Below are positions 34,471 to 64,000 of a DNA stretch of 64,000 nucleotides, piece by piece. The DNA comes from Adhaeribacter arboris (lineage in GTDB: Bacteria > Bacteroidota > Bacteroidia > Cytophagales > Hymenobacteraceae): contig NZ_PYFT01000001.1 of the NCBI RefSeq assembly GCF_003023845.1, positions 4,216,001-4,280,000 of the forward strand. Reading direction: 5' to 3'. How positions within the stretch are numbered: position 1 is the first letter of the stretch; the number at the start of each line of letters is the position of its first letter. A program made the position numbers and the translations under genes. The notes beneath the pieces were generated by a model. It did not search any database, was not told where the DNA came from, and was given only the letters and a program-made list of their open reading frames with translations.

Positions 34471-34494
34471 TACTTTAACTTTAAATCAGGTATA

Positions 34495-37863: not shown

Positions 37864-37880
37864 AATGTTAACACTCTCAA

Positions 37881-38927: not shown

Positions 38928-38937
38928 GTATGTTTGG

Positions 38938-41591: not shown

Positions 41592-41715
41592 TCTGTTTTC
41601 TAACTAAAATTTTACTAAATCAACAGCCAACTAATTTATTAAAACTGCCCGAAGAGCTGAAAGGTAATTTTAGTAAATCTGTAAGCTGTTAACCTCTGTT
41701 ACCTACGCATTGCCC

Positions 41716-44700: not shown

Positions 44701-44808
44701 GAAAATTCACTAATGCCCTCTAACCTGCAGCAAACCATGAGCGAGCAGGAACTGGTAAACTTAGTAGAATACCTGACTACCTTAAAGAAAGCATCCGCCT
44801 CTAATTAG
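41716..44808 (+). CDS. PVC-type membrane dehydrogenase with HEAT repeats and C-terminal cytochrome c
   Basis: A 1030-residue exported protein from ATG 41716 (a TTG six bases upstream is less likely). The N-terminal segment is hydrophobic (GRLLLGGLLCLSAAFS). A six-bladed dehydrogenase domain covers about residues 55-440 (AFATEPSVRNPTNMDIDAKG, HDHAVHAFTFGPDGKLYFNFG, SLFVADWYDPGVGGH). Helical HEAT-like repeats cover about 455-850 (ANIRMAGLRAALEQK, VRREVAVNLRFN). A cytochrome c domain has haem motif CVACH near residue 902 and a distal Met in SLMPSNL. Such proteins oxidise sugars or similar compounds in the periplasm and pass electrons to the respiratory chain. The domain order resembles the fusion at 31072 but without ThuA, and the HEAT array is extra. 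Confidence 0.85.
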   Translation: MKNKTGFSTFQEKQSITKSNPFLSKTNGRLLLGGLLCLSAAFSTNIHKIRPADDDLSTGFEVANGLEVKAFATEPSVRNPTNMDIDAKGRVWVCEGVNYRPKLNPTNKGQEEGDRILILEDTDGDGKADKEKVFYQGNDVNAALGIAVLGNKAIVSVSPNVFIFTDTDGDDKADKKELLFTGLSGEQHDHAVHAFTFGPDGKLYFNFGNEGKQIKDKEGKPLVDREGNEIADNGKPYRQGMVFRCDMDGSNIEVLANNFRNNYEVAVDSYGTLWQSDNDDDGNRGVRINYVMPYGNYGFRDQMTGASWQSPRTNLEEEIPLRHWHLNDPGVVPNLLQTGAGSPTGMVVYEGNLLPATFQGQMIHSDAGPNVVRAYPVQNDGAGYKAEIVNILKTKEDKWFRPSDVTIAPDGSLFVADWYDPGVGGHQVGDLVKGRIFRIAPPGTAYTVPKLDLSTPAGAAEALKSPNLATRYLAYEKLQGWGKKSEKVLAKMFQSDSNPRFRARALWLLSKLNKKGKKYMDAAVNDADANIRMAGLRAALEQKIDVNPILAKLAKDSSPQVRREVAVNLRFNKSPEAAQIWTTLANQYDGQDRWYLEALGIGADLQWDTFFAAWQKQSNRDVANKANRDIIWRARTPEALKMLPTLITQANVTEKERPRYFRAFDFYPEDAAKQQILLGLLNGNSPQQAQIISLALNHIDAKKYGSDPKVQSALRRGLEYAKGQNQFVQLVKRFESKDQNAELVRLATTQPESEIGVEASKILLRTGPDQIMKVLNGKEETALAMITAMGRYEDKKAQELLEDVALNGNRSIEVRKLALKKIGRGGSGEARLLNIVKNNKLNPEMQQVAGSVLLNSYRQNIREEAAQYLKTPSREGKPLPPIDQLATLTGDPVNGKAVFSQSCVACHKVNGEGTPFGPELSEIGNKLPKVALYKSILHPDAGISFGYEGYQVKLKDGNQVVGIIASQTEDKLDLRQPGGSVTSYALADIASKKQMENSLMPSNLQQTMSEQELVNLVEYLTTLKKASASN

Positions 44809-45026: not shown

Positions 45027-48000
45027 TTATTTGGTTAAGAGCATTTTCTGCTGATGGCGTTGCGTAGGGGTTTGTAATTGCAGGAAATACAGGCCGGCCG
45101 GGTTAGGGCCGGCTTGCCAGTGTACCTGGTAAGTTTGGTTTACTTGGGTTTGACCTTGAAACAATGTAGTAATTTCTTTGCCTTGGTTGTCGTATATTTT
45201 CAACTGTACCGATTGCGACTGAGGCAAAGTAAAACTTACAGTAATTTTCTCCCGGAACGGATTAGGATAGGCGCTTAAATTTATTATTTCTGCTGGTTCA
45301 TCTACTAAGGTAGCTTCTCGGGCGGGAGTTACGGCACTGGTCTGGGGGGCTACTTTCACGAGCCAATAATCGGTGCTGCCTTGGCTGGGTTGGGTTCTGT
45401 CGCCGCTTACTCCTGAATCCGAACGCCCACCGAGCAGTAAACCACCATCGTAAGTTTGCAACACAGCGTGCAGTTCTTCGGAGCCATTGCCCCCGAAGCG
45501 TTGGTCGGCTATTTTCTCCCCTCCGGGAGCCACTTCTACTACCCAGTAATCGCTGGCTCCCTGGTTGGCTTGCGTCTTGTCCCCGCTATTACTCGAAGAA
45601 GAAGTGCCCGCTAAAATGTAATTCCCTTCTTCGGTGTAAGTACTGGCCCGCAGTTCATCGTCCTGATTGCCGCCAAAGGTCTTATCCCACAACTTGGTAC
45701 CTTTTTCATCTAACCTAATTAACCAGTAATCTTTTTCTCCTTTACTTTTCTGGCTCTTGTCGCCTTCTTTGCCCGAACTACTGGTGCCGGCAATAAACAA
45801 GTTATCGCCCTGGCTACGCCCTACTGAATAGGCCTCATCCTGGTCGCTACCGCCGTAACTTTTCTCCCAAAGTAAATTACCGTCTTTATCGGTCTTCACG
45901 GCCCAGAAATCACTCTTACCTTGACTCGCCTGGCTCTTATCGCCACTGCTGCCGGACGCGGAACTGCCGCCCAGGAAAAAACCGCCGTCTCTCGTTTCCG
46001 TAAAGCTGCCTAATGTTTCGTCTAGACGGCCACCATAGCGTTTATCCCAGACCTTATTACCATCGGCACTTATCTTCACCAGCCAGTAATCATGGTTGCC
46101 TTGAGAAGCTTGGCTTTTATCACCGCTAACGGGGGAATTGCTCGTGCCACCTACCACGTATTCCCCGGAAGTTAACTGAACTACTTTCTTCAACTCGTCA
46201 TTCCCCGAACCGCCAAAGGTTTTATCCCACTGCTTCGTGCCTTGTTTATCTATTTTCACGACCCAGTAATCGCGCTCACCTTGGCCGGCTTCTGTTTTGT
46301 CTCCGCTCTTACCCGAGCGAGAGGAACCGCCTAAGAGATAGCCCCCATCAGCGGTTTGAATAACGCGGTTCAGATAATCCTCCTGCGTGCCGCCGTAGCT
46401 TTTCTCCCAAACCTTTTTGCCGTTCTTATCTGATTTTACAATCCAGTAGTCGTTATTACCTTGGCTGTTCTGGCTCTTGTCGCCACTAACCCCGGAGTTG
46501 GTATAGCCTCCCGACAAGTAGCCGCCATCACTGGTCTTAATTACCGAAGTGAAGTTGTCTTTGCCCGTGCCACCGTACCGCGTATCCCATTGGGCGATGT
46601 AGGGTTGTTCTTCAGTTAGCTTAATTATCCAGTAATCGAAGCTACCCTTACCAGCAGAAATTCCACTAAATAAATACCCGCCGTCGCTTACTTGCTGTAA
46701 AGAAATTAATGCTCCACTTATAATAGTTTCGTCCCAAACTTTCGTGCCATCTGCGTGTAACTTTACTATCCAAGGTCTACCAGATGCTTTTGTTCTATCC
46801 CCACTGATGCTGGAAGTAGAAGTACCACCCAAAATATAGCCGCCGTCATTTGTCTGTTGCACCGAGGCTAACACATCATCCCCATCTCCCCCAATAATTT
46901 TATCCCATTCTTTAATACCATTCGCTTTTAGCTTTATTATCCAATAATCATTGTTGCTGCTAGTCCTGTCACCTCCAGCTCCTAAAACATAGCCCCCATC
47001 ACTTGTCGGCTGTACCGAAGATACCTCCCCCACATTAAATGCTTTATCCCAAACTATGGTACCATCCGCTTGTAACTTCACCAGCCAGGCCCCGCCTCTG
47101 TTATCTTCGGATTTATCACCGGTTTTGCCGGAAAAAGAAGTGCCACCCAGGATATACCCTCCATCGCTGGTTTGCTGAACGGAGACAAAAATTTCTTCAT
47201 CATCGCCGCCAAGGGTTTTATCCCAGACTTTAGTACCGGCCGAATTCAGCTTCACTACCCAATAATCGCCGTGATAGAAAGCTTCCTCACTATCCCGGCT
47301 AGCTTCGGATTTATCGCCACTAATTCCGGAAACAGAAGTGCCACCCAGAATATATCCCCCATCACGGGTTGGTTGAAGGTAGGTTAATTCATCCTTCTTA
47401 TTACCGCCAATGGTTTTGTCCCAGGCCTTACTACCATTGGCATTCAGCTTCACTACCCAGTAATCAGCTTCCCCTTTATTGGCTTCGGATTTATCGCCGC
47501 TTTTACCCGATTCGGAATACCCCCCTAGAATATAGCCCCCATCACTCGTCTGCCGGACAACATGTAACACATCGTTCGCATTACCCCCAATCGTTTTATC
47601 CCAAGCTATGGTTCTATCGGCATTCAGCTTCACTATCCAGTAATCTGTAGTAGGCTCACCGTTACTAACTTCCCCTTTGTTAGCTTCGGATTTATCCCCG
47701 CTGATGCCCGAAGCAGAAGTACCACCCAGAATATAGCCGCCATCCGGGGTTGGTTGGACAAAAGAAATAACGTCCTCCTTATCGCCACCAATAATTTTCT
47801 CCCATTCTGTTTTAAGCAGCGCCGGTGTTTCCACGAAGAAGGAAAGGGTTGCTTCGGCCGGTTGGTAAGCATCAGTGCCTGCCACAAAGGCTTTTACTAA
47901 TACGGTACCTAAGCCGATAATCGTTACTATATTATCTTTAATAGTAGCCGGCCCCGAAACAACCCGGAAGGTAACTGGTAAACCCGATGTGGCTGTGGCA

Positions 48001-49475
48001 GAAATAGCAAAAGGCCCCTCACCTAAAGTTTTAACGGGAATAGAAGCAATAGTTACAAATTGATTTTTACTACCTTTGTTATCCAATTTTATAATCCAGT
48101 AATCGCTTCCTCCTTTAGCTGCTTGCGATTTATCGCCGCTTTTACCCGAATTAGACCAGCCGCCTAGAATATAGTTTCCATCACTGGTCTGCTGTAAAGA
48201 GGTTAATACATCCGTATCACTGCCACCGCTGGTTTTATCCCATTCTTGGCTCCCATCTGCTTTTAGCTTCACCACCCAGTAATCTTCATAACCTTTAGAA
48301 ATTTGGGATTTATTACCGCTAATGTCCGAACCAGAATATCCACCTGCAACATAGCCGCCATCACTCGTCTGTTGCACCGAAGCCAACTTATCACTATTAC
48401 TTCCCCCGATGGTTTTGTCCCATTCTTTGCTGCCATCGGCCTTTAGTTTCACTATCCAATAATCACCGTTGCCTCCTTTAGGTGCTTGCGATTTATCGCC
48501 TGATATTTCGGATTGCGAAGTGCCGCCGAGAATATATCCCCCATCATTCGTCTGCTGCCCAGAAGTTAAATTATCATCACTATTTCCCCCAATCGTTTTA
48601 TCCCATTCTTTGCTACCATCTGCTTTTAGCTTCACTACCCAATAATCAACATCGGTGTAATCACTTTTTTTGTTTTCCGATTTATCACCGCTTATACCGG
48701 AAGTAGAAGAGCCGCCCAGAATATAGCCGCCATCACTCGTCTGTTGCAACGAGCTTAACTCATCAGATTCGCTACCTCCAATAGTCTTATCCCATTCTTT
48801 GCTGCCGTCCGCTTTTAGCTTTACTATCCAATAATCATAGTTTTCTTCTTCTCCTCTGTAAGCATCCGATTTATCTCCGCGTTTGCCGGAATTAGAAGTC
48901 CCGCCTAGGATGTAACCGCCATCACTTGTCTGCATCAATGCGGCCAACATGTCTTGATTATTTCCCCCAATAGTTTTATCCCAAACCTTTTTACCCTTAT
49001 TATCAATCTTCACTATCCAGTAATTTTGAAAACCTTTATTTGCTTCGGATTTATCACCACTCTTGCCAGATTCAGAATACCCGCCTAGAATATAACCGCC
49101 ATCACGGGTTGGCAGCACGGTGGCTAAGTGTTCATAACCATTTCCCCCGAAGGTTCTGTCCCAAATTTTTTCACCATTCGCATCTAACTTAACAATCCAA
49201 TAATCAAACTCACCTTTATTAGTTGTGGTTTTATCGCTGCCAATGCCTGATAACGAAGATCCACCCAGAATATAGCCGCCCTCCTGGGTGGGTTGGATAG
49301 AAGCTAATTCATCCAAATTACCGCCCCCAATGGTTTTATCCCAGAGTTTATTTTGGGCCAAAGTAGTGAGGGTGAAAGAGAAATAAAGTAAAAAACAAAG
49401 GCTTGGCGCGCACCACGCAGGTACTATTTTCCGGCTTGGATAGCTATGATTAAAAGCAGATAAAAGTGTTTTCAT
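45027..49475 (-). CDS. Giant propeller-repeat surface protein, T9SS type A (paralogue 1)
   Basis: A 1482-residue secreted protein from ATG 49475 (the frame runs further upstream, but MKTLLSAFNHSYPSRK gives the signal peptide ending near TTLAQ). It consists of about 60-residue repeats, each like WDKTIGG-x-x-x-D-x-L, then QTSDGGYILGG, SxSG, DKS and DYWIVKL: the SBBP/beta-propeller blade pattern. By eye I count 7 repeats, an Ig-like domain (plus-strand about 47812-48066; SGLPVTFRVVSGPATI), then 14 more. Blades 11-14 are irregular or shortened. A linker (EEQPYIAQ) follows blade 14. The C-terminus is a type A sorting domain (AYPNPFREKITVSF, AGLYFLQLQTP, LLTK). Predicted: three seven-bladed propellers on the cell surface. 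Ligand unknown. Confidence 0.8.
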   Translation of the reverse strand: MKTLLSAFNHSYPSRKIVPAWCAPSLCFLLYFSFTLTTLAQNKLWDKTIGGGNLDELASIQPTQEGGYILGGSSLSGIGSDKTTTNKGEFDYWIVKLDANGEKIWDRTFGGNGYEHLATVLPTRDGGYILGGYSESGKSGDKSEANKGFQNYWIVKIDNKGKKVWDKTIGGNNQDMLAALMQTSDGGYILGGTSNSGKRGDKSDAYRGEEENYDYWIVKLKADGSKEWDKTIGGSESDELSSLQQTSDGGYILGGSSTSGISGDKSENKKSDYTDVDYWVVKLKADGSKEWDKTIGGNSDDNLTSGQQTNDGGYILGGTSQSEISGDKSQAPKGGNGDYWIVKLKADGSKEWDKTIGGSNSDKLASVQQTSDGGYVAGGYSGSDISGNKSQISKGYEDYWVVKLKADGSQEWDKTSGGSDTDVLTSLQQTSDGNYILGGWSNSGKSGDKSQAAKGGSDYWIIKLDNKGSKNQFVTIASIPVKTLGEGPFAISATATSGLPVTFRVVSGPATIKDNIVTIIGLGTVLVKAFVAGTDAYQPAEATLSFFVETPALLKTEWEKIIGGDKEDVISFVQPTPDGGYILGGTSASGISGDKSEANKGEVSNGEPTTDYWIVKLNADRTIAWDKTIGGNANDVLHVVRQTSDGGYILGGYSESGKSGDKSEANKGEADYWVVKLNANGSKAWDKTIGGNKKDELTYLQPTRDGGYILGGTSVSGISGDKSEASRDSEEAFYHGDYWVVKLNSAGTKVWDKTLGGDDEEIFVSVQQTSDGGYILGGTSFSGKTGDKSEDNRGGAWLVKLQADGTIVWDKAFNVGEVSSVQPTSDGGYVLGAGGDRTSSNNDYWIIKLKANGIKEWDKIIGGDGDDVLASVQQTNDGGYILGGTSTSSISGDRTKASGRPWIVKLHADGTKVWDETIISGALISLQQVSDGGYLFSGISAGKGSFDYWIIKLTEEQPYIAQWDTRYGGTGKDNFTSVIKTSDGGYLSGGYTNSGVSGDKSQNSQGNNDYWIVKSDKNGKKVWEKSYGGTQEDYLNRVIQTADGGYLLGGSSRSGKSGDKTEAGQGERDYWVVKIDKQGTKQWDKTFGGSGNDELKKVVQLTSGEYVVGGTSNSPVSGDKSQASQGNHDYWLVKISADGNKVWDKRYGGRLDETLGSFTETRDGGFFLGGSSASGSSGDKSQASQGKSDFWAVKTDKDGNLLWEKSYGGSDQDEAYSVGRSQGDNLFIAGTSSSGKEGDKSQKSKGEKDYWLIRLDEKGTKLWDKTFGGNQDDELRASTYTEEGNYILAGTSSSSNSGDKTQANQGASDYWVVEVAPGGEKIADQRFGGNGSEELHAVLQTYDGGLLLGGRSDSGVSGDRTQPSQGSTDYWLVKVAPQTSAVTPAREATLVDEPAEIINLSAYPNPFREKITVSFTLPQSQSVQLKIYDNQGKEITTLFQGQTQVNQTYQVHWQAGPNPAGLYFLQLQTPTQRHQQKMLLTK

Positions 49476-49942
49476 GAGGAAAGATTTAGTGTAAGGGCGG
49501 AGAAGTAAATACAAAGGGTTAAGCAGATAAATGAAGGGAGATAATACTGGTAATTAGTAAGAAGGTAAAGCACCCAAATACAAGTAGTTCCTTCTGGTTT
49601 TAGTACCTAAGTTAAAGTTATTCTTGATAATATACTAAAGAATCTAAAATGGATTAGCATAAAAAAGCCTGTATAGTTTGCGGGTAGATTTTAGGAATAA
49701 AGCAGCTAGCGCTTCGCTTAATTAAAAATCAGAAATTATGAATTAGAAATTCTAGCTTAAAAGAGTTGCAAGCTAGAATAGATGCTAATTTTATTTCTAC
49801 CAATTAAATTGGACAAATACTAGCGAAAAATAATAAAGAAAACGTAAGTACTCGTTTTACTTTTTACAGGTATGTTTATAAAAAACAAAGCCGGCTAGCA
49901 TTTTTGCTCTGCTACCCGGCTTGCTTATGAAAGTAGTTTGGC
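49476..49942. other. Intergenic region, with terminator, between paralogues 1 and 2
   Basis: No gene. It holds the promoter of paralogue 1 and, on the minus strand, the terminator of paralogue 2 at 49880-49922. Confidence 0.45.
49880..49922 (-). terminator. Hairpin terminator after paralogue 2
   Basis: AAGCCGGCTAGC at 49888-49899 pairs, with one mismatch, with GCTACCCGGCTT at 49911-49922. The A-rich left side gives a T run on the minus-strand transcript. Confidence 0.65.
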
Positions 49943-52900
49943 TTACTTCGTTACAAGCAGCTTCTGTTGCTGGCGCAAAGTAGGAGTTTGCAGTTGTAGT
50001 AAATACATGCCCGCTGCCTGCTGATTAGCTTGCCACTCAATTTGGTACGGTTGCTTGGCTTGCACCTGCCCCTGGAACAAAGTGGCGACCTGCTTACCTT
50101 GCATGTCGTATACTTTTATGGTAGCGGTTTGGCTTTGCAGCAAAGTAAAACTAACAGTAAGCCGTTCTTTGGCCGGATTCGGAGAAGCCGTGAGCAGGTT
50201 ATACGCTGCTTTAATTATTGGTTCCGTTGCGGGTACGGCCTGCCGGAAAGCGGCGAGTGAATTACTAAGTGGCGCTACTTTTACCAACCAGTAATCCGTA
50301 CCGCCCTGACTAGACTGGGATCGGTCGCCACTTACGCCGGAAGCGGAGCGGCCGCCCAAGAGCCAGCCGCCATCGCTAGCCGGGAATACGGTGCGTAGTT
50401 CTTCGGCTCCGCTGCCGCCAAACCGCTGATCAATCAGGTTCTGGCCTTTCTCATCTACCTGCACCATCCAGTAGTCACTTTCTCCCCGGCTGGCCTGGCT
50501 TTTATCGCCCCCGGCATCGGAATAAGAAGTACCCGCCAGAATATAGTTCCCTTCGTCGGTGTACGTACTGGCCTGTAGCTCATCATCCTTTGCGCCCCCG
50601 AAAGTTCGGTCCCATACTTTTGCGCCTTGCTGATTTACTTTTACCAACCAGTAATCTTTGCCGCCTTTACTTTCCTGGCTCTTGTCACCGTTTTTACCGG
50701 AGTCACTGGTACCGGCCAGGTAGAGGTTATCGCCGTGGCTGCGCCGCACCGAGTAAACTTCATCGTTACCGCTACCGCCAAAGGTTTTTTCCCAAAGTAA
50801 GTTGCCGTCTTTATCCGTTTTTACCGCCCAATAATCACTGCCGCCCTGGTTTTCCTGAGTTTTGTCGCCCGTTTTGCCTGACCAGGAACTACCGCCCAGG
50901 AAAAAGCCCCCATCTCTGGTGTCGGTGAAGCTGCCTAGCTTGTCTTCTTTGCTGCCCCCATAGTTTTTATCCCAAAGTTTCTCGCCCGTGCTGCTGATCT
51001 TGACTAACCAGTAATCCTTATTTCCTTGCCCATCCTGGCTTTTATCGCCGCTCTTGGGCGAATTACTCGTACCGCCCAGCACGTATTCTCCCGAGGCCAG
51101 TTGCACTACTTTTACTAGTTCATCCTGACCACTGCCCCCCAGAGTTTTGTCCCATTCGGTATTACCTTGGCCATCTACTTTTACTATCCAATAATCCCGC
51201 TCGCCCTGGCCAGCCTCTGACTTGTCGCCACTTTTGCCCGAAAGCGAGGAACCGGCTAATAAGTACCCCCCATCGGCTGTTTGAATAAGACGGTTCAGAA
51301 AATCATCGCCACTGCCACCGTAACGTTTATCCCATTCTTTTTGCCCGTTCTTGTCACTCTTTACAATCCAGTAGTCGTTCTCCCCCTGGCTACTTTGGCT
51401 CTTATCGCCATTGTTACCGGAAGTGGTGTAACCACCCGCTAAATAACCGCCATCCCGGGTCTTGATTACCGAAGTTAAGTTATCCTGACCACTGCCCCCA
51501 AAGCGCATATCCCAAACTGTTTCCAGGGTAACTTCTTCTTTTAACTTTACGATCCAGTAATCATTGCTACCTCTACTCGACTCGCTTTTATCGCCAAAAA
51601 CTCCCGAAGAAGAAGTTCCCCCTAAAATGTATTCTCCGTTGCCGGTTGGTTGCACCGACACCAATACATCATTATCGTTACCGCCCAAGGTTTTGTCCCA
51701 GACTTTGCTGCCATCGGCTTTTAGCTTGATTACCCAATAGTCAAAGTCGGGGGCGCCGCGCGGAATTTGAGTTTTGTCGCCGGAAATAGCAGAAAAAGAA
51801 TTTCCTCCCAAAATATAGCCCCCATCGCTGGTTTGCCGCACCGAGCTTAACACTTCGCTTTCATTTCCACCCAGGGTTTTATCCCAATCTTTGGTGCCAT
51901 CGGCTTTTAGCTTTACTACCCAGTAATCGTGTTGGCCTTTAGAAGCCTGACTTTTGTCGCCGCTAATACCCGACCAGGAATAACCGCCCAGGATATAGCC
52001 TTCGTCGCTGGTTTGCTGCAAAGAGGTTAAATAATCTTCGTCCGTGCCGCCAATAGTTTTATCCCAGGCTTTGTCGCCGTTAGCCCCCAGTTTTACAATC
52101 CAGTAATCGGTGCTGCCAATCCGGGCCTGCGATTTATCACCGCTGATACCGGATAAAGAATAACCGCCCAAAATATACCCGCTATCTTTGGTTTGCTGCA
52201 AAGAAGTTAAGACATCTTCGTACCGCCCGCCAATGGTTTGATCCCATTCTTTACTGCCATTTGCCTTTAATTTTACGACCCAGTAATCCGTCAGGCCCTG
52301 GGAAGCTTCGGTTTTATTAGCTCCAATGCCGGAAGTAGAATGACCGCCCAGGATATACCCGCCGTCATTGGTTGGCTGCACGGAGGTTAAATAATCTTGG
52401 TTTCTGCCGCCAATGGTCTGGTCCCATTCTTTCGTACCATTTGCCTTTAGTTTTACGACCCAGTAATCCCAACTACCTTTAGTGGCCTGCGTTTTATCGC
52501 CGCTCACGCCGGATAAAGAATATCCGCCCAGAATATAGCCCCCATCTTGCGTTTGCTGGACAGATTGTAATACATCCTGACTATTTCCCCCAATGGTTTT
52601 ATCCCATTCTTTACTGCCATCGGCTCTTAATTTCACGATCCAGTAATCCTGGCCGCCTTTACTAGTTGCTGATTTTTCGCCATTTTTGCCGGAGGACGAG
52701 CTACCTCCTAAAATATACCCTTTATCGCTGGTTTGCTGGACAGAAGTTAACTGATCGGATGAGTTACCCCCAATGGTTTTATTCCACTGTTTTCTCACCA
52801 GGGAAGCCGGTTCTACCAAAAAGGAACGGGTAATGGAAACCGGCAGGAAAATAGTAGTGCCCAGTTGCGCTGCTTTTACGGTAACGGTTCCCAAGCCCGT

Positions 52901-54442: not shown

Positions 54443-54575
54443 AAATGTATACGTTAACGAATAGGTGATTTTTAATTTTATCTTTGCTCATTCAATAAGA
54501 CCAGCTACCCTTAGGCCGGCCCCCAGTAATTCGCCTAGAAAAGCAGGAGAAACAAAATACTTTCTTCTTTAATTC

Positions 54576-57500
54576 TTAGCGGGCGAGCAGCAATTTATAT
54601 TGGCGGCGTTTGGCCGGAGTTTGCAGTTGCATCAAATACATGCCCGTGGCTTGTTTATCGGCCTGCCATTCTACCTGGTACATTTGGTTAGCCTTAGCTT
54701 CGCCCTGAAACAGAGTGCTTATTTCCTTACCTTGAAGATTATAGACTTTTAACTGAGCCGCCTGGGTTTGAGGCAAGGTAAACTGCACCGTTACTTTTCC
54801 CGGAGCCGGATTGGGGTAAGCACTTAAAAGGAAGGACGAGCTGGCCTCTCCGGCTTTTCTTTCGCCCCGGTTGGTTTCGCTCACTAAAGCCGGAGGCGCC
54901 GCTAGTTCTGCTGGAGCTTCAATCACTTCGGGCGCTACTTTTACTACCCAGTAATCGGTTTTGCCTTGGCTGGCTTGGGTTCTATCGCCACTCACCCCGG
55001 AATCAGAGCGTCCGCCCAATAAATACCCCCCGTCGTCGGTTTGCAGAATGGCCCGGATTTCGTCGTAGGCATTGCCTCCAAAACGTTTATCCCATTGTTT
55101 CACTCCCACGCTGTTTGTTTTCACGATCCAATAATCGCTGCTGCCCTGGCTTTTTTGGGTTTTATCGCCGCTAATATCCGATTCGGAACGACCAGCTAAT
55201 AAATAACCCCCATCGGCGGTGATAATAATCGAGCGCAGTCCTTCGTCTTTATCTCCCCCAAACCGACTATCAAACAGTTTTTCCCCGTCGCCGCTAATTT
55301 TTATCATCCAGAAATCTTTACCGCCCCGGTTGCTTTGCGTTTTATCGCCACTAATGCCGGAAGTACTATGGCCGGCCATAAAGAAGTTACCGGTGGCCGT
55401 GCCCGTGCTACCCAACGACATTAAATTATCTACTCCGGAACCGCCGTAACGCTTATCCCAAACAACATCTCCATCGCCGTTTATCCTTACTACCCAATAA
55501 TCCGCGCTGCCCCGGGTGCTTTGCGTTTTGTCGCCGCTTACCCCCGAAAAAGAGGAACCACCCAGCAGAAAGCCGTCGTCCAGGGTAGGAGCAATGCTTT
55601 CCAGCGCATCGTTAAGGGAGCCGCCATAACGCCGGTTCCAAACCAGGGAGCCGTTATTGTTTAATTTTACTACCCAATAGTCTTGCCCTCCCCGGGTGTT
55701 CTGGGTTTTATCGCCGCTCGCCGTAGAACTGCTGGTACCCGCCAGCACATATCGGCCGGAAGGTAATTGAAAAATTTGTTTGAGGTCGTCGGAGCCACTT
55801 CCCCCGAAGCGTCTGTCCCATACTTTTACTCCTTTCGCATTTATTTTTATTACCCAATAGTCGCGCTCACCCCGGCTGGCCTGCGTTTTATCGCCGCCTA
55901 CTCCGGAGAGGGAAGTACCGCCGAGCAAGTAACCGCCGTCAATGGTTTGAATAACGGAATTTAAATAATCATCCGAAGGCCCGCCGTACCGGATGTCCCA
56001 TTGTTTTTTTCCCGCTTCATCGGTTTTAACAATCCAATAATCGCTCTTGCCCCGGGAAGGCTGCGTTCTATCGCCACTGTTGTCGGAAGTAGAAGAGCCG
56101 CCGAATAAGAAACCACTATCGGCAGTTCTAATTACCGTAGCAAAACCATCATTGCCTGAACCTCCGTAACGAAAATTCCACTGGGCATCCAGGAAGTTAT
56201 CTTCTTCCACTTTTACTACCCAATAATCACTTTCGCCTTTACCTGCTTCACTTTTTTCGCCACTAGTGCCGGAAAAAGAACTACCGCCCAGTAAATACCC
56301 CCCATCGGGAGTAGATAATAAAGCCTGCAGTTCATCGGAATTTTTGCCCCCGAAAGTTCTGTCCCAAGCTTTATTACCGGTTTCGTTTATCTTTATTACC
56401 CAATAATCCGGACCGCCGCGGCTAATCTGCGTTTTATCGCCGCCTACTCCTCCCTGGCTTGTACCACCCAGCAAATACCCGCCGCCCGGCAGGGCAACCA
56501 AGTCAGCAAAATAATCATAGTCGCGGCTACCAAAGGTTTTATCCCAGATTTTATTCCCGGTACTGTCTACTTTTATAATCCAGAGATCTGCCCCACCTTT
56601 TCCGGAACTGGTTTTATCGCCTTGTAAGCCGGATTCGGAATACCCCCCTAACAAATAGCCGCCATCTTGGGTGAGCGCCAAATTATAAAGATTATCGGTA
56701 GCCCCGCCGCCAAAAGTATTATCCCAAACCTGCGTACCCGTGCTGTCCAGTTTTACCACCCAGTAATCATCCACCCCTCTGGATTCGCCGGTTTTATTGT
56801 AGCCAATGTCGGAGTAAGAATTTCCTCCCAGCAAAAAACCGCCATCCGGGGTAGCCATTACTTCGGCCAGCCGGTCATCGCTGTCGCCGGTTATGGTTTT
56901 ATCCCAAACTTTTTTACCGTTTTCGTCGATTTTTATTACCCAGTAATCCCGGTCGAGACCGCCCCGGCCCGCCTGGCTCTTATCGCCGCTTTTGCCGGAA
57001 AAAGAACTACCACCCAGTAAAAAGCCGCCATCCTGGGTGGCAACCATCGCTTGAAAATAATCCGAACTATTGCCCCCAATGGTTTTGTCCCAGACTTTAT
57101 TGCCGGCGGCATCTAATTTCACGATCCAATAATCAAAACCACCCTTACTTTTGCCGGTTTTATCGCCATTCATGTCGGATAAAGTAGAACCACCTACCAA
57201 ATAGCCGCCATCGGGGGTGGTAATTAAATCTTCGAAATAATCATAACCGCTCGTACCAATTGTTTTATTCCAGACGATATTGCCGCTGGAATTCACTTTT
57301 ACAATCCAATAATCGGCTTCGCCCCGGCTAGGCTGCGTTTTATCTTTGCCCGCTCCCGAAGTAGAGGTGCCGCCCAGTAAATAGCCGCCATCGGGCGTTA
57401 CAATCATGGTAGTAAGAGCTTCGGCAGCACTACCGCCCAGGGTTTTATCCCATTGCTTGCTTTGGGCCCACGCGACAGAAGCGGAACAGTACGAACTAAG

Positions 57501-57584
57501 TAAAACCAAGAATAAAAAGCGCCAAAAACGAGCGAACGATTGATTTTCCCAAATCCTGTTGCAACAAAGTACTAGTGTTTTCAT
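54576..57584 (-). CDS. Giant propeller-repeat surface protein, T9SS type A (short paralogue 3)
   Basis: A 1002-residue secreted protein with a signal peptide ending near residue 41 (LLSSYCSASVAWAQ). By eye it contains exactly 14 blades and no Ig-like domain: seven blades, a linker (EEDNFLDAQ), seven blades, then a sorting domain (SAYPNPAPGKVTVQF, TGMYLMQLQTP). It therefore corresponds to the second and third propellers of paralogues 1, 2 and 4, without the first propeller and the Ig domain. The linker falls at the same position as after blade 14 in the longer proteins. Its blades also use other residues (TPDGGYLLGG rather than QTSDGGYILGG), so it has diverged more than a recent truncation would. 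Confidence 0.82.
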   Translation of the reverse strand: MKTLVLCCNRIWENQSFARFWRFLFLVLLSSYCSASVAWAQSKQWDKTLGGSAAEALTTMIVTPDGGYLLGGTSTSGAGKDKTQPSRGEADYWIVKVNSSGNIVWNKTIGTSGYDYFEDLITTPDGGYLVGGSTLSDMNGDKTGKSKGGFDYWIVKLDAAGNKVWDKTIGGNSSDYFQAMVATQDGGFLLGGSSFSGKSGDKSQAGRGGLDRDYWVIKIDENGKKVWDKTITGDSDDRLAEVMATPDGGFLLGGNSYSDIGYNKTGESRGVDDYWVVKLDSTGTQVWDNTFGGGATDNLYNLALTQDGGYLLGGYSESGLQGDKTSSGKGGADLWIIKVDSTGNKIWDKTFGSRDYDYFADLVALPGGGYLLGGTSQGGVGGDKTQISRGGPDYWVIKINETGNKAWDRTFGGKNSDELQALLSTPDGGYLLGGSSFSGTSGEKSEAGKGESDYWVVKVEEDNFLDAQWNFRYGGSGNDGFATVIRTADSGFLFGGSSTSDNSGDRTQPSRGKSDYWIVKTDEAGKKQWDIRYGGPSDDYLNSVIQTIDGGYLLGGTSLSGVGGDKTQASRGERDYWVIKINAKGVKVWDRRFGGSGSDDLKQIFQLPSGRYVLAGTSSSTASGDKTQNTRGGQDYWVVKLNNNGSLVWNRRYGGSLNDALESIAPTLDDGFLLGGSSFSGVSGDKTQSTRGSADYWVVRINGDGDVVWDKRYGGSGVDNLMSLGSTGTATGNFFMAGHSTSGISGDKTQSNRGGKDFWMIKISGDGEKLFDSRFGGDKDEGLRSIIITADGGYLLAGRSESDISGDKTQKSQGSSDYWIVKTNSVGVKQWDKRFGGNAYDEIRAILQTDDGGYLLGGRSDSGVSGDRTQASQGKTDYWVVKVAPEVIEAPAELAAPPALVSETNRGERKAGEASSSFLLSAYPNPAPGKVTVQFTLPQTQAAQLKVYNLQGKEISTLFQGEAKANQMYQVEWQADKQATGMYLMQLQTPAKRRQYKLLLAR

Positions 57585-58322
57585 GCTGTTTTGGTTTAAA
57601 TAGGGTTATTAAAAAGGTACTGGACTATAAAGGCACACGCAACACTGTTTTAAACAGAGACAATAGAAAGAAGTAATGTGGCAGTTGAATACGCAGAAGG
57701 TGATTTACCCCTACTTATTTTTACTATAATAAGAATAAAAGCGAAAAGAGGCCTTACTATTACTAACATATTTGGGCAAATAACAAGCATTTTTGCCGCT
57801 CCGTCGGATTCTAATTGCGATTTATAAATCGAGTTCTTTACCAGAGAAAATCTCGTACGAGCCTGACACCAAACCCGGAGAAGAATAGAATTTATTAATT
57901 ACAAAGTAAATTCAGTTGTAGAAAATAATAGCAATAAAACCAGAACCAATAGAAAAGTATTCACTCTGGTAAAGAATAGAAATAGGCACGGAATGCTAGC
58001 CAGCTACTTATAAGCAAAGCTTTTTTGGACTTAACTGCTAATAAATTTAATAAAAACTTTGTAAAGAAGAAATTATTTGGGTTTAATTTAAAATTTTGCT
58101 AAAAGAAAATCCTAAAACAACGCCTTTATAATTAGTTTTATCTTTTAAGCTGTTGCGGAGCTATTGGTTTTAGCCTGTATAGTTAGCTTTTTTGAATTTT
58201 AAAGCAGCTTATTTTTTATACTTTTAGCAATGGCTGTCCCTTTTGTTTAACTATAAAACAATAAAATTCCAAAGCCAGATCGCGTTGCGGCAATCTGGCT
58301 TTGGTTTTAAAATTAGGATTAT
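57585..58322. other. Long intergenic region between paralogues 3 and 4
   Basis: 738 bases, AT-rich, no supported gene on either strand. It must contain the promoter of paralogue 3. A hairpin near the right end (58271-58302) probably terminates paralogue 4. Confidence 0.45.
58271..58302 (-). terminator. Hairpin after paralogue 4
   Basis: AAAGCCAGAT at 58271-58280 and its perfect complement at 58293-58302, with a twelve-base loop. The sequence on the left is A-rich, giving a weak T run on the minus strand. Confidence 0.55.
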
Positions 58323-61300
58323 TTATCTAAATAGAAATACTTTCTGCTGCTGACGCTGAGTGGGGGTTTGCAGTTGCAGCAGGTACATGCCGGCGGACTT
58401 ATTACTGGCTTGCCATTCTACCTGGTAGGTTTGCTGGGCTTGGGCTTGACCTTTAAATAAAATGCTTATTTCTTTGCCCTGGTTATCGTACACCTTTACT
58501 TCGGCTGGTTGGGTTTGGGGTAAAGTAAAGCTTATTTTTACTTGCTCTTTAAAAGGATTAGGATAAGCTTTTAACAAGCTAGATGCTGTTTCCTTTACCG
58601 GTTCTTCAGTTGCAGTTTCTTCTCGGGTAGCTACATTTGAACCAGTCACGGGAGCTACCTTTACCAGCCAGTAATCGGTGCTGCCTTGACTCGGTTGCGT
58701 TCTGTCGCCACTTACCCCCGAGTCGGACCTGCCACCTAAGACGTATCCACCATCCTTGGTCTGGAGTACCGTTCTCAGCTCTTCCGTGCCACTGCCGCCT
58801 AAACGTTGATCCCATTCTTTCTCGCCCTTGTCAGTGGTCTTCACTAACCAGTAATCCTTACTACCTTGGCTACTTTGGTTCTTATCTCCACTTACCCCGG
58901 AGTGGGAGGAACCGCCCAGCAAGTAGCCGCCCTCTTCTGTCAGTTGAATCGTGCGTAGTTCTTCGTCCTGGCTGCCCCCAAAGCTTTTATCAAACAATTT
59001 CTTGCCGGTATCATTAATCTTGAGCATCCAGTAATCTTTGCTTCCTTGGCTCGCCTGACTTTTATCCCCGCTCTTACCCGAACTGCTCGTACCGGCTACA
59101 AAGAAATTACCCGAACTCGTATTGGTGCTGCCCAACGCTCGCAGTTCCTCATCAGAGCTGCCGCCATACGTTTTGTCCCACACTTTCTCTCCCGTGCCAC
59201 TAATGCGCACTAACCAGAAATCCTTACCGCCTCTACTCGCTTCACTCTTATCCCCGCTGATGCCGGAAGTAGACGTGCCGCCTAACAGAAAACCTCCGTC
59301 TAAAGTTAAGGCTAAGTCTTCCAGTACTTCCTCCTGGCTGCCCCCATACCGTTTGTCAAACATCTTCTTACCGGTACTATTAATTTTAAGTATCCAGTAA
59401 TCACTACCGCCTTTACTTTCCTGGCTTACCTGACCACTTACCGGAGAGTTGCTGGTGCCCGCCAAAATAAAAGAACCCGAGGGCAACAGGATAACTTTCT
59501 TTAACTCTTCCGTACCACTACCGCCGTAAGTTTTATCCCAAAGTTTTGTGCCTTGCTTGTCTATTTTGAGGATCCAGTAATCGCGCTCTCCTTGGCCGGC
59601 TTGGGTTTTATCGCCGCCTATGCCCGACAAAGAACTACCCGCCAGTAAATAGCCGCCATCCGAAGTCTGAACCATACTGTTCAAGTAATCATCTGAAGAG
59701 CCGCCGTAGCTTTTCTCCCACAACTTCTTCCCGTTCTTATCACTTTTCACTATCCAGTAGTCGTTTTTACCTTGGCTGCTCTGGCTCTTATCCCCACTTA
59801 CATTAGAAGTAGTGTAACCTCCCGATAAATACCCACCATCCTTGGTTTGGATAACCGTAGTAAAGTTATCCTTCCCCATACCGCCGTAGCGCATGTTCCA
59901 TTGCGCTGTTAAGGATTGTTCTGCTGAAAGCTTGACGACCCAGTAATCATTTTTGCCTCTGCCAGCCTCGGATTTATCACCACCAATGCCAGAATAATCA
60001 ATACCAGAGTAAGGGGAATAGGAATTACCACCTAAAATGTAACCGCCGTCACTAGTCTGCTGTAAGCAGGTTAATACATCGTCACTAGTTCCACCTATAG
60101 TTTTATCCCATGCTTTGCTACCATCCGCCTTCAACTTTACTACCCAGTAATCGGAGCTACCTCTACTCACCTGAGTCTTATCGTCATTTTTGCCTCTCCA
60201 AGTAGTTCCACCTAAAATATACTCCCCATCACTCGTTTGCTGCACGGGCAATAATCCATCTCCATTAGCCATGCCCTTAAAAGTTTTGCCCCATTCTTTA
60301 CTGCCATCGGCCTTTAACTTTACTATCAAGAAATTACCGTTATTGTAACCACTTCCCAGAATGTAACCGTCATCCTGCGTCTGCTGGATGGAGGAAAATA
60401 CATCACCAATAACAACTTTATCCCATTCTATGGCACCATCTGCTTTTAGTTTCACTATCCAGACACCTGACGAAGCTTCGCTACCAGAATAAGAATTACC
60501 ACCTAGAATATAACTCCCATCACTAGTCTGTTGCAACGAAACTAATTTGTCATCATTATCTCCGCCAATAGTTTTGTCCCACGCTTTACTGCCATCCGCT
60601 TTTAACTTTACTACCCAGTAATCATAGGAGCCATTATTCTTCTGAGATTTGTCTCCGCTTATAATGGACATAGAAGAGCCTCCCAGAATGTAGCCGCCAT
60701 CTTGGGTCTGCTGAAGTGATGTTAAATAATCATAATTATCTCCGCCAATAGTTTTATCCCATTCTTTCGTGCCATTTGCATTTAACTTTACTATCCAGTA
60801 GTCCCCACCACCTCTGCTAACTTGGGATTTATCGCCGCTGATGTCAGAATGAGAAGAACCACCCAGAATGTAGCCGCCATCTTGGGTCTGCTGAAGTGAT
60901 GTTAAATAATCAAAACTATTACCTCCAATGGTTTTATCCCATTCTTTGCTACCATCCGCCTTTAGCTTCACTATCCAATAATCCCCATAGCCTCCTTTAG
61001 ATGCTTCGGTTTTATCCCCGTTTTTTTCAGAATCTGAACTACCTCCCAGAATATAGCCGCCATCACTGGTTTGCTGCACTACGGATAATGTTTCAATTTC
61101 ACTTTCACTCCCCCCGAAAGTTTTATCCCATTGTTTTTTCACCATGGAAGCTGGTTCTACCAGGAAAGTCCGGGTTGTTTCTGCTGGCAAGTAGGAGGTA
61201 TTGCCTGCTACCGAAGCTTTTATAGTAACCGTACCTAATCCGGTTAAAGTAAGAATACTACCTTTGATGATAGCCGGGCCAGATACCACACTAAAATGAA

Positions 61301-62789
61301 CTGGTAAACCTGATGTAGCAGTAGCCAAAAGAGGGAAAGGCACATCCCCCAAATTTTTATATAAAATTGGCACAAAAGAGATATCCTGGTTCAGGTTGGT
61401 GCCACTATTATCCAACTTCAATATCCAGTAATCAGAGTCTCCTTTGGAGGTTTGTGATTTATTGCTGCTTTTTCCAGATGCAGAGGAACCACCCATAATA
61501 AAACCATCATCACTTGTTTGCTGGATTGCGCATAAATAATCTTCTTCCTTTCCTCCAAAAGTTTTATCCCAAACTTTAGTACCATCCGCTTTTAGTTTCA
61601 CTATCCAATAATCACTTCCCCCTTTAGAAGCAGTAGTTTTATCTCCGTTAATACCGGATTTGGAAGTACCCCCTAAAATATAGCCGCCATCTTTGGTTTG
61701 CCGGACAACAGTTAACTGCTCCTCGGATTTACCACCAAATGTTTTATCCCAGAGTTTAGTACCATTTGCCTTAAGCATTACTATCCAGTAATCGGAGTCT
61801 CCTTTAGATCCTTGGGTTTTATCGCCGCTAATGCCCGACCCAGAATAGCCCCCTAAAATATAGTTTCCATTAAGGGCTTGTTGTACCATGGATAGATGGT
61901 CCACCCAACTGCCGCCAAAGGTTTTATCCCATTCCTTTGTGCCATCCGCCTTTAGCTTTATAACCCAATAATCACTAGGCGACCCACCTTCTTCGAACGT
62001 GCCCCCTTTATTAGATTCTGTTTTATCGCCACCGATATCGGAAGAAGAAGAGCCCCCCAAAATATACCCACCATCACGGGTTTGTTGCAAGGAGGATAGC
62101 CAGTCGGAATTATTCCCTCCAAAGGTTTTATCCCATTGTATGACGCCAGTAGAGGTTAATTTTATGATCCAATAATCAGATGCTCCTTTAGAACCTTGAG
62201 TTTTATCGCCACTAATGCCCGAAGAAGAAGAGCCCCCCAAAATATAGGCTCCATCGCTGGTCAGTTGTAGGGAGGTTAAGTTGTCCTCATTATCTCCCCC
62301 GATGGTTTTGTCCCAAACTTTGGTACCATCGACCTTTAGCTTTACTATCCAGTAATCACTAAAAGGAATACCATATTCATTTACGCCGCCTTTATTAGGG
62401 TCAGTTTTATCACCGCCTTTGCCCGACCGTGAACTACCACCTAGGATATACCCACCATCTTGGGTCTGCTGAAGTGATGTTAAATAATCATAATTATCTC
62501 CGCCAATAGTTTTATCCCATTCTTTCGTGCCATCCGCTTTTAACTTTACTACCCAGTAATCAGTGGCGTAATCCTCTTTCCCTTTATTGGCTGCGGTTTT
62601 ATCACCGCTTTTAGAAGAACTAGAACTTCCTCCCAGAATATAACCGCCGTCATTAGTCTGCTGTACTATGGACAATTCATCACTTTGATTTCCGCCAAAG
62701 GTTTTATCCCAGATTTTATTTTGAGCGAAGGTCCATGTAGACATACTTAAGGATAGAAGTAAAAACAGGCTGATAAAGCGCCGATTCAT
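58323..62789 (-). CDS. Giant propeller-repeat surface protein, T9SS type A (paralogue 4)
   Basis: About 1488 residues from ATG 62789 (MNRRFISLFLLLSLSMSTW, cleaved near TFAQ). Other ATGs at 62798 and 62843 would lengthen the N-terminus and the start is not certain. By eye: 7 blades, Ig-like domain (plus-strand about 61130-61405; SGLPVHFSVVSGPAII), 7 blades, a linker (SAEQSLTAQ), 7 blades, then a sorting domain (KAYPNPFKEQVKISF, AGMYLLQLQTP). Blades 12 and 13 are irregular (WDKVVIGDVFSSI). The last three or so blades are almost identical in DNA to those of paralogue 5. Blades 2 and 10 share 79 identical bases. Predicted three-propeller surface protein. Confidence 0.8.
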   Translation of the reverse strand: MNRRFISLFLLLSLSMSTWTFAQNKIWDKTFGGNQSDELSIVQQTNDGGYILGGSSSSSKSGDKTAANKGKEDYATDYWVVKLKADGTKEWDKTIGGDNYDYLTSLQQTQDGGYILGGSSRSGKGGDKTDPNKGGVNEYGIPFSDYWIVKLKVDGTKVWDKTIGGDNEDNLTSLQLTSDGAYILGGSSSSGISGDKTQGSKGASDYWIIKLTSTGVIQWDKTFGGNNSDWLSSLQQTRDGGYILGGSSSSDIGGDKTESNKGGTFEEGGSPSDYWVIKLKADGTKEWDKTFGGSWVDHLSMVQQALNGNYILGGYSGSGISGDKTQGSKGDSDYWIVMLKANGTKLWDKTFGGKSEEQLTVVRQTKDGGYILGGTSKSGINGDKTTASKGGSDYWIVKLKADGTKVWDKTFGGKEEDYLCAIQQTSDDGFIMGGSSASGKSSNKSQTSKGDSDYWILKLDNSGTNLNQDISFVPILYKNLGDVPFPLLATATSGLPVHFSVVSGPAIIKGSILTLTGLGTVTIKASVAGNTSYLPAETTRTFLVEPASMVKKQWDKTFGGSESEIETLSVVQQTSDGGYILGGSSDSEKNGDKTEASKGGYGDYWIVKLKADGSKEWDKTIGGNSFDYLTSLQQTQDGGYILGGSSHSDISGDKSQVSRGGGDYWIVKLNANGTKEWDKTIGGDNYDYLTSLQQTQDGGYILGGSSMSIISGDKSQKNNGSYDYWVVKLKADGSKAWDKTIGGDNDDKLVSLQQTSDGSYILGGNSYSGSEASSGVWIVKLKADGAIEWDKVVIGDVFSSIQQTQDDGYILGSGYNNGNFLIVKLKADGSKEWGKTFKGMANGDGLLPVQQTSDGEYILGGTTWRGKNDDKTQVSRGSSDYWVVKLKADGSKAWDKTIGGTSDDVLTCLQQTSDGGYILGGNSYSPYSGIDYSGIGGDKSEAGRGKNDYWVVKLSAEQSLTAQWNMRYGGMGKDNFTTVIQTKDGGYLSGGYTTSNVSGDKSQSSQGKNDYWIVKSDKNGKKLWEKSYGGSSDDYLNSMVQTSDGGYLLAGSSLSGIGGDKTQAGQGERDYWILKIDKQGTKLWDKTYGGSGTEELKKVILLPSGSFILAGTSNSPVSGQVSQESKGGSDYWILKINSTGKKMFDKRYGGSQEEVLEDLALTLDGGFLLGGTSTSGISGDKSEASRGGKDFWLVRISGTGEKVWDKTYGGSSDEELRALGSTNTSSGNFFVAGTSSSGKSGDKSQASQGSKDYWMLKINDTGKKLFDKSFGGSQDEELRTIQLTEEGGYLLGGSSHSGVSGDKNQSSQGSKDYWLVKTTDKGEKEWDQRLGGSGTEELRTVLQTKDGGYVLGGRSDSGVSGDRTQPSQGSTDYWLVKVAPVTGSNVATREETATEEPVKETASSLLKAYPNPFKEQVKISFTLPQTQPAEVKVYDNQGKEISILFKGQAQAQQTYQVEWQASNKSAGMYLLQLQTPTQRQQQKVFLFR

Positions 62790-63180
62790 CCTCAACATGG
62801 GGTATAAAAAAACCCAGAAGGAAAAAGATAAATGTATTTTCATATTGGTAAGAGTAAGCCCATGTTCTGGAAGCAGTAAAAGGAGCATCAAGAGAATGCG
62901 CAGTAAACATTAAGGCGTTTACAAATGAAAATCAGTATTACTTTTTATTTTAAAGATAAAGTATTATTTTGAGAATAGATTAGCTATTTAGAATAAATAA
63001 TTAGATAGTAGTAGAATTATCAAGCTTATTATCACCTATTTACCATAAAACAGCAGCAATAACTATCTATAAGCGATTATGAAGGTGCAAGAAGTCCATC
63101 CTGCAGATACATAGAAAATTTAAAATTAAAAGCCAGCTAGCCTTGCAGCTACCCGGCTTTTGTTGACTTATTAAGATTAT
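62790..63180. other. Intergenic region with promoter and terminator between paralogues 4 and 5
   Basis: No supported gene. It carries the promoter of paralogue 4 (minus strand) and, at 63122-63161, the terminator of paralogue 5. Confidence 0.45.
63122..63161 (-). terminator. Hairpin terminator after paralogue 5
   Basis: AAAAGCCAGCTAGC at 63128-63141 pairs, with two mismatches, with GCTACCCGGCTTTT at 63148-63161. The right arm repeats the one in the paralogue 2 terminator (GCTACCCGGCTT), so terminators were probably copied along with the genes. Confidence 0.55.
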
Positions 63181-64000
63181 TTACTTAGTAAGCAGTAGTT
63201 TCTGCTGATGTTGTTGAGTAGGGGTTTGCAGCTGTAACAGATATAAACCGGCTGGTTTATTACCCGCCTGCCATTCTACCTGGTAGATTTGGTTCGCTTG
63301 AGCTTGCTCCTGAAATAAAGTAGTAATTACTCTACCTTGTATGTCATAAATTTGAATTGTAGCAACTTGAGTAGTGGGTAAATTGAAGCTAATACTTACT
63401 ATTTCCCGGAATGGATTAGGATAGGCTTTAAGTAGATTTATATCCGTCTCAGCTTTCAGTTCTGCTCCTGTTTCTTCCCGGGCAGCTACCATCGAGGTAG
63501 TGAGTGGCGCGAGTTTTACCAGCCAGTAATCGGTGCTGCCTTGACTCGGTTGCGTTCTGTCGCCACTTACCCCGGAGTCGGACCTGCCACCTAAGACGTA
63601 TCCGCCATCCTTGGTCTGGAATACCGTTCTCAGCTCTTCCGTGCCACTGCCGCCTAAACGTTGATCCCATTCTTTCTCGCCCTTGTCAGTGGTCTTCACT
63701 AACCAGTAATCCTTACTACCTTGGCTACTTTGGTTCTTATCTCCACTTACCCCGGAGTGGGAGGAACCTCCCAGCAAGTAGCCGCCATCTTGCGTCAGCT
63801 GAATAGTGCGCAACTCTTCCTCCTGGCTGCCCCCAAAGCGTTTATCCCACAACTTCTTACCACTGCCATTAATCTTGAGCATCCAGTAGTCCTTTCCTCC
63901 CTGGCTCACTTGACTTTTATCCCCGCTCTTACCCGAACTGCTCGTACCGGCTACAAAGAAATTACCCGAACTCGTATTAGTACTCCCTAGTGCTCGTAGT
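63181..64000 (-). CDS. Giant propeller-repeat surface protein, T9SS type A (paralogue 5, 3' part)
   Basis: The frame is open through the right edge, so only the C-terminal 270 or so residues are visible and the gene starts outside the window. The last three blades are present (one interrupted at the edge: ALGSTNTSSGNFFVAG, then WDKRFGGSQEEELRT and WDQRLGGSGTEELRTV), followed by a type A sorting domain (KAYPNPFREIVSISF, AGLYLLQLQTP, LLLTK). These blades are almost identical in DNA to those of paralogue 4, while the sorting domain is more different. A GTG at 63909 that could be read as a start is internal. Confidence 0.8.
   Translation of the reverse strand, partial: LRALGSTNTSSGNFFVAGTSSSGKSGDKSQVSQGGKDYWMLKINGSGKKLWDKRFGGSQEEELRTIQLTQDGGYLLGGSSHSGVSGDKNQSSQGSKDYWLVKTTDKGEKEWDQRLGGSGTEELRTVFQTKDGGYVLGGRSDSGVSGDRTQPSQGSTDYWLVKLAPLTTSMVAAREETGAELKAETDINLLKAYPNPFREIVSISFNLPTTQVATIQIYDIQGRVITTLFQEQAQANQIYQVEWQAGNKPAGLYLLQLQTPTQQHQQKLLLTK

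Follow-up and report, generated by a model that had tools for sequence, protein, structure and literature searches.

We analyzed a window of 64,000 nucleotides from Adhaeribacter arboris (positions 4216001-4280000 of contig C1 in the 7.25 Mb genome, G000), part of which is occupied by an array of genes for giant proteins built from blade-like repeats. In these proteins and their relatives, blades occur almost without exception in multiples of seven, even though blade-sized tracts are exchanged within genes, and the last block of seven is nearly constant among paralogues, whereas the blades upstream of it are scrambled and carry loop insertions. We consider there to be about an even chance that the proteins are strings of complete seven-bladed beta-propellers exported by the type IX secretion system (T9SS), with a common last propeller as carrier and outer propellers as binding heads, and that they act as diversified adhesins or receptors.

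Blades come in whole sevens

A profile hidden Markov model (HMM) built from 13 regular repeats and run on the window proteins finds 21, 21, 14 and 21 blades of ~60 residues each in the four complete proteins, A, B, C and D (1495, 1499, 1002 and 1522 residues), the same numbers that a preliminary description of this DNA had obtained by hand. Only two of the 77 blade matches are partial, at residues 934-970 of A and 823-847 of D. The fifth gene, E, runs past the window; the whole gene (G000:C1:4279181-4283803) encodes a 1540-residue protein of 21 blades. The parts of the array that lie in the window are:

45027..49514, minus strand: gene A, 1495 residues, 21 blades (7-insert-7-7) and T9SS tail
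48066..49343, minus strand: A propeller 1, blades 1-7 (blade HMM)
47805..48065, minus strand: A insert of 87 residues after blade 7, Ig-like by pattern only
46605..47804, minus strand: A propeller 2, blades 8-14 (blade HMM)
45342..46589, minus strand: A propeller 3, blades 15-21, of the near-constant last type (blade HMM, paralogue comparison)
45030..45341, minus strand: A tail with T9SS sorting domain (Pfam/NCBIfam match)
49943..54442, minus strand: gene B, 1499 residues, 21 blades (7-insert-7-7) and T9SS tail
53054..54310, minus strand: B propeller 1 (blade HMM)
52787..53053, minus strand: B insert of 89 residues after blade 7
51527..52786, minus strand: B propeller 2 (blade HMM)
50273..51514, minus strand: B propeller 3, which finds CylK on its own (blade HMM, PDB search)
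49946..50272, minus strand: B T9SS tail (Pfam/NCBIfam match)
54576..57584, minus strand: gene C, 1002 residues, 14 blades (7-7) and T9SS tail
56196..57452, minus strand: C propeller 1 (blade HMM)
54933..56180, minus strand: C propeller 2, of the near-constant last type (blade HMM, last-propeller tree)
54579..54932, minus strand: C T9SS tail (Pfam/NCBIfam match)
58323..62891, minus strand: gene D, 1522 residues, 21 blades (7-insert-7-7) and T9SS tail
61398..62711, minus strand: D propeller 1 (blade HMM)
61131..61397, minus strand: D insert after blade 7
59913..61130, minus strand: D propeller 2, with one degenerate blade at about residues 823-866 (blade HMM)
58656..59900, minus strand: D propeller 3, recently exchanged with gene E (identity, DNA tracts)
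58326..58655, minus strand: D T9SS tail (Pfam/NCBIfam match)
63181..64000, minus strand: 3' end of gene E (last blades and tail)

Gene A as listed starts at TTG, and an ATG 13 codons further in may be the true start. Gene C has counterparts that are 85% identical in G003 and 74% identical in G004. All 19 G000 open reading frames (ORFs) with 21 called blades have an insert of 84-94 residues behind blade 7. The preliminary description had seen this insert and called it an Ig-like domain; the insert is general, but its identity as an Ig domain found no family match, there being no Pfam match at E-values up to 5 for four inserts and, for two inserts, no NCBIfam match better than intimin at 0.02. 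'Ig-like' remains a plausible label taken from the sequence pattern. The linker that had been placed after blade 14 (after blade 7 in gene C) exists but is short: another sequence takes the place of the inter-blade hairpin there, usually with two or more residues added.

Searching related genomes recovered blade proteins whose counts are again almost all in whole sevens. Our first set comprised closed ORFs with at least four blades and a tail of 90-130 residues from G000, G003, G004, G006, G009 and G040. Whole sevens account for 94 of these 101 ORFs, with 21 (52 ORFs), 14 (29), 7 (12) or 28 blades (one). In the other seven, with 16, 16, 18, 15, 5, 5 and 4 blades, the frame opens 0-14 residues ahead of a blade, and we take these for 3' pieces of broken genes. 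Raw counts differed in six of the 94 and were settled by eye; an automatic counting rule, written later on this set with those six in view, agrees. When the rule was applied to a second set fetched afterwards (37 ORFs from G003, G004 and G006), 33 were in whole sevens (14 with 21 blades, 10 with 14 and nine with 7), and the rest were three 3' pieces (9, 9 and 4 blades) and one intact gene with 19 blades. Raw counts of 13, 15, 20 and 22 in intact ORFs turned out, by eye, to reflect split or missed degenerate blades. The two sets together give 127 of 138 tailed ORFs with 7, 14, 21 or 28 blades, and 127 of 128 once the ten 3' pieces are removed, although three of the 127 likewise begin within ten residues of a blade. 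Counts other than multiples of seven are thus found in few members rather than in most.

From 40 stretches of 20 further genomes (including G001 and G002 of the same genus, and G009, already in the first set) we obtained 46 ORFs, three of which were stretch-cut or short frames. All of the remaining 43 have 7 (37), 14 (four) or 21 blades (two), one of the 14s after a missed blade had been seen by eye. Named matches in other phyla and in archaea often have seven blades; others have four to six, some of them cut by contig ends. The longest string is in G006 (C1:4230603-4236602), with 28 blades arranged 7-insert-7-insert-7-7 and inserts that are 57% identical to each other. In G052, from another family of the order, a protein with 21 blades (7-7-7) has two inserts, 195 and 192 residues long.

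Block borders and predicted export

The borders of the blocks carry their own mark. At 1126 of 1284 junctions within blocks, the Trp of the next blade stands 12 residues after the strand-c Trp and a Gly is at +8, an arrangement seen at 0 of 126 junctions that follow a seventh blade; the test covers 88 ORFs chosen because their raw count is in whole sevens, and it uses the same blade calls. Such a loss would be predicted for a ring in which the block's first strand joins its last blade to complete the circle, which would break the c-d hairpin there. Each block probably closes as a ring with such a 'velcro'. The counts, the loss of the hairpin after each seventh blade and homology to the propeller of CylK (see below) together support the proposal of the preliminary description that these are predicted strings of complete seven-bladed propellers.

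Export by the T9SS, also proposed there, is supported at the sequence level. Por_Secre_tail / TIGR04183 scores above cut-off at the C terminus of all four complete proteins, and G000 encodes SprA, the sole T9SS translocon component searched (2411 bits, C1:5872103-5879158). At the other end of the chain, AQ is found no more than five residues ahead of the Trp of the first blade in 74 of the 85 ORFs with 29-109 leading residues, which fits the Q-rule described for Bacteroidetes (PMC5837995). We infer that the exported proteins may be retained at the surface.

The last propeller is nearly constant and the upstream propellers are scrambled

The 19 G000 proteins with 21 blades are, averaged over pairs, more alike in block 3 (identity 0.61) than in block 1 (0.49) or block 2 (0.45). 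We then asked, in four genomes, whether the best match of a blade sits at the same position in another paralogue. For block 3 or the last block it does so for 127 of 133 blades in G000, 87 of 91 in G003, 42 of 49 in G004 and 46 of 63 in G006. The corresponding numbers are 31/133, 7/91, 9/49 and 7/63 for block 1, and 30/133, 32/91, 13/49 and 9/63 for block 2. Insertions after blade column 46 follow the same division, occurring in 38% of blades in block 1, 34% in block 2 and 5% in block 3 (48 proteins, four genomes). Judging from the fold and from the published text on CylK, the strand order presumably places these variable loops on the top face.

Exact DNA tracts show where exchange has taken place. 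Tracts of at least 36 bp shared between genes lie nearly all in the last block or tail. Of 32 such tracts in G000, 28 are at the same position in both genes; of the other four, three link last blocks to a piece of a broken gene, whose numbering is shifted, and one links an upstream block to a last block. In the upstream blocks of multi-propeller genes, tracts of this length fall inside genes, between different blades. In ORFs with at least 14 blades, exact within-gene tracts of at least 30 bp join upstream blades in 25 cases, last-block blades in two and a blade of each kind in one, a count that covered 130 upstream and 79 last propellers.

The pair of genes D and E provides one clear case of exchange. 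Their last propellers are 92% identical and every other part is at most 62% identical. Among codons for identical residues, third positions match at 78-92% in blades 16-21, at 65% in blade 15 and at 51% in the tail, and at 31-63% in blades 1-14 (31% in blade 12 and 46-63% in the rest). Because identity jumps only in the last propeller, recent exchange in this pair was confined to it.

The last propeller and tail are also found joined to peptidases, once to a subtilase with TIG and GEVED domains (C1:1356374) and once to an M6 peptidase with GEVED (C1:1361079), where the tail falls just under the Pfam cut-off. These two genes are neighbours, each with GEVED, one propeller and a T9SS tail. Other combinations include genes of G040 with 600-930 leading residues and one propeller, and single propellers near the N terminus together with PKD, CBM35 or TIG domains. 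The product of C1:6242352 has an FG-GAP region and TIG domains followed by 14 blades; its seven FG-GAP-like repeats, recognized by pattern, are apparently an N-terminal propeller of another family. The G004 counterpart of this gene has four such repeats by the same strict pattern. What is new here is the near-constant last propeller, exchanged in one clear case and present behind proteases as well, with scrambled blades and variable loops upstream of it.

Propeller number, blade loss and selection

The sevens could simply have been inherited, one 21-blade ancestor having been copied many times, in which case their regularity would be silent on selection. Most 21-blade genes do have the same architecture, and many are tandem copies. 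We nevertheless regard this explanation as unlikely. A tree built from the last propeller and tail of the first set's 94 whole-seven ORFs requires ~22 changes of propeller number, and well supported branches alone force at least 10 changes for the 21-blade or 14-blade label, although exchange of the last propeller may inflate these numbers, since it could explain some changes without any change in length. Moreover, the 25 exact tracts described above show that blade-sized exchange within genes is frequent upstream, and blades are in fact lost. The intact 19-blade gene (G003:C2:3536752-3540885), with blocks of 5, 7 and 7, encodes a protein 82% identical over 991 residues to that of G000:C1:2615707 and aligns in order with blades 1, 4, 5, 6, 7 and 8-21 of the latter, so that two whole blades have been lost; it could also be a repeat collapsed in assembly.

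Broken genes bear on the same question. Odd blocks occur in three of ten broken genes, in which pieces were added by hand and partly on hit counts alone, compared with one of the 128 ORFs that are not 3' pieces (Fisher test on 126:1 versus 7:3, p 0.001). The three are the neighbour of gene E, with blocks of 7-6-7 and one in-frame TAG (G000:C1:4284144-4288553), and two genes of G003, C2:1749932-1753534 (1-7-7) and C2:1754072-1758582 (an eight-bladed first block). This excess is suggestive only, because the count was made by hand, the ten genes were a chosen set and the genes are related to one another. At G003:C2:3041283-3050956, two adjacent genes are each broken in the sixth blade.

In five orthologous pairs, the ratio of nonsynonymous to synonymous substitution rates (dN/dS) is 0.04-0.17 per propeller. 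The preliminary description had taken the regular multiples as a sign of selection to keep whole propellers. Blade copying, the ~22 changes of propeller number and the occurrence of odd blocks mainly in broken genes support this view without proving it; against it stands the intact gene with a five-bladed first block, which is under ordinary purifying selection.

Extent and distribution of the family

The array is longer than the five genes first described: it has nine genes, one of them broken, and reaches genome position 4301845. Beyond E lie, in order, the broken gene (4284144-4288553), a 14-blade gene (4290487), a gene at 4294064 with ~660 other residues and one propeller, and a gene at 4298411 with two propellers around a 165-residue insert. 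G000 has a second array of 13 ORFs (2587644-2648121) and further scattered copies, for a total of 40 ORFs with at least four blades, 608 blade matches and 152,670 bases, or ~2% of the genome. Decayed blade remnants full of stops are found at about G000:C2 202610-203890, on the second contig. Among eight genomes of the genus, G000, G003, G004 and G006 have more than 100 matches each and the other four have 0 to 10. In a sample of the phylum, 11 of 198 genomes, G000 included, match at an E-value of 1e-40 (at most seven candidates per genome were scored), and among relatives 38 of 59 match at 1e-20.

Beside the array, at 27311-44808 of the window, lie sugar-related genes for GH5, 3-keto-disaccharide hydrolase and GFO/IDH/MocA proteins, together with ThuA with glucose/sorbosone dehydrogenase and cytochrome c, xylose-isomerase-like TIM barrels, DUF7133 with cytochrome c, and a further T9SS-tailed (CHU_C) PKD protein. 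A phage origin was rejected, as gene C and the last part of gene B have no PHROGs match, and so was a defence origin, as genes C and B have no PADLOC match. Invertible promoters were also discarded; the inverted repeats around the window array are short and differ between stretches, and one of five stretches has none.

Models for the function of the array

In the model of carrier and binding heads, the chain would fold into one to four seven-bladed propellers, and the C-terminal sorting domain would take it through the T9SS. Since that domain sits at the C terminus, the last propeller would adjoin the cell and the others would project outward. The last propeller would then be a common carrier module, and the outer propellers, with their variable loops, would be binding heads for different ligands such as glycans, proteins or other cells. 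A more specific version is possible, if doubtful: a constant/variable surface repertoire, in which dozens of T9SS proteins in one genome share a nearly constant, exchanged membrane-proximal propeller, the outer propellers are diversified, and ring closure lets through almost nothing but whole sevens. The outer propellers would vary by shuffling of blades within genes and by loop insertions on one face, with diversity made blade by blade and inherited propeller by propeller.

Several observations weigh against binding heads and a diversified repertoire. Positive selection was not seen in any propeller of the five orthologous pairs, and in the three collinear 21-blade orthologous pairs upstream propellers have a dN 0.5 to 2.5 times as high as the last propeller, a pattern weaker than expected for a strongly diversifying repertoire. 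The whole last propeller is cleanly exchanged in one pair; in three other G000 pairs exchange is partial and in one of these it reaches the tail. Gene conversion of the conserved end alone could mimic a constant/variable family. Blade copying also occurs in a single-propeller gene on the second contig and so is not confined upstream (G000 has 12 tracts of at least 36 bp inside last or only blocks, those listed being in this gene). The five-bladed first block of the intact G003 gene has a dN/dS of 0.12, so that the 19-blade protein may still be functional. Finally, no partner is indicated among the 20 other window ORFs scanned, most of which are metabolic or transport genes.

The proteins might instead be structural rods, perhaps stiffened by calcium, that form a surface layer or hold domains off the cell, with differences between paralogues that are mostly neutral. 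Such a role would agree with purifying selection in all five tested pairs and with the presence of the module between peptidase domains and tail. It would also agree with the electron-dense surface layer described for type A cargo of Porphyromonas gingivalis (PMC9143113) and with the calcium sites described at each blade junction of CylK (PMC8916777); two Asp positions of our blades are mostly shared with CylK. We think a coat or spacer rather improbable, however, since it is the outer propellers that hold most of the loop insertions and scrambled blades, and near-constancy of the last propeller alone would be needless in a pure spacer. Secreted enzymes with catalytic sites on the top face are also conceivable by analogy, since CylK, the nearest solved relative, is an enzyme, but they seem very improbable: CylK needs its Arg105-bearing N-terminal domain, and the stretch ahead of blade 1 in each of the four complete window genes is just 44-60 residues long, counting the signal peptide, and holds no such domain.

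Multiples of seven in secreted propellers are what the fold predicts, and the fold itself is ordinary. The family stands out by how many paralogues there are, by how few exceptions occur in spite of blade exchange, and by the contrast between a near-constant last propeller and scrambled upstream ones. The family is a natural experiment on the evolution of repeat domains, with hundreds of diverged blades, ongoing exchange, counts that are nearly all sevens, one clean loss of two blades and odd blocks in some broken genes; together these allow a direct test of whether closure of the fold filters repeat number. If the constant/variable model were true, these probably environmental bacteria would have a repertoire for surface recognition built on a common carrier propeller.

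Comparison with known propellers and surface proteins

Single-sequence and profile searches of the PDB returned only CylK as a relative, plus a GH167 enzyme via the tail. CylK (PDB 7fh6, 7ron) matches the blades at E-values of 2e-25 to 1e-34; within the last block of gene B (415 residues), residues 184-345 and 46-302 match CylK 254-407 and 414-659, two overlapping pieces, as is usual for repeats. The propeller of CylK is described as having seven blades with Ca2+ at every junction between them, and catalysis by CylK requires Arg105 from an N-terminal Ca-binding domain (PMC8916777). The array proteins resemble it in having homologous blades, seven to a block. In the printed alignment, CylK and the blades mostly share the Asp located two residues ahead of the strand-c Trp and the acidic residue that follows the Gly pair, and these positions suggest Ca2+ at the predicted blade junctions as well. 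The array family differs in having one to four propellers and a T9SS tail, against a single propeller in CylK plus an N-terminal Ca-binding domain that supplies part of the active site.

The likeness to SBBP propellers noted in the preliminary description is distant. The four proteins match NCBIfam NF047494 (the Leptospira SBBP lipoprotein LipL53) at E-values of 5e-27 to 1e-34, but with 95-120 bits against a cut-off of 400; the Pfam SBBP repeat is absent from their matches at E-values up to 1, and no Pfam model finds the blade. LipL53-type proteins share this distant sequence similarity, and the array proteins differ from them by their T9SS tail.

The domains of the P. gingivalis gingipain/haemagglutinin adhesins are not known to be related to the array propellers. 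These adhesins are also T9SS surface proteins (PMC9143113) and are diversified by rearrangement and exchange of domains, which is described between strains (PMC5266723). A search of open-licence PMC papers gave none that pairs Adhaeribacter with a beta-propeller.

Tandem seven-bladed propellers in one chain are described for WRAP (Npun_R6612), in which 14 near-identical blades make two seven-bladed propellers (PMC9218822, PMC6805158). The WRAP propellers are of the WD40 family, in a STAND ATPase protein, with near-identical blades, whereas the array family has diverged blades and dozens of T9SS-tailed paralogues. The repetitive propellers described by Pereira and Lupas in 2022 likewise have amplified blades and several propellers per chain, and they include proteins of 15 blades, as 7+8, and of 47 (PMC9218822), so multiples of seven are not automatic. 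In the family analyzed here, by comparison, 127 of 128 ORFs have whole sevens.

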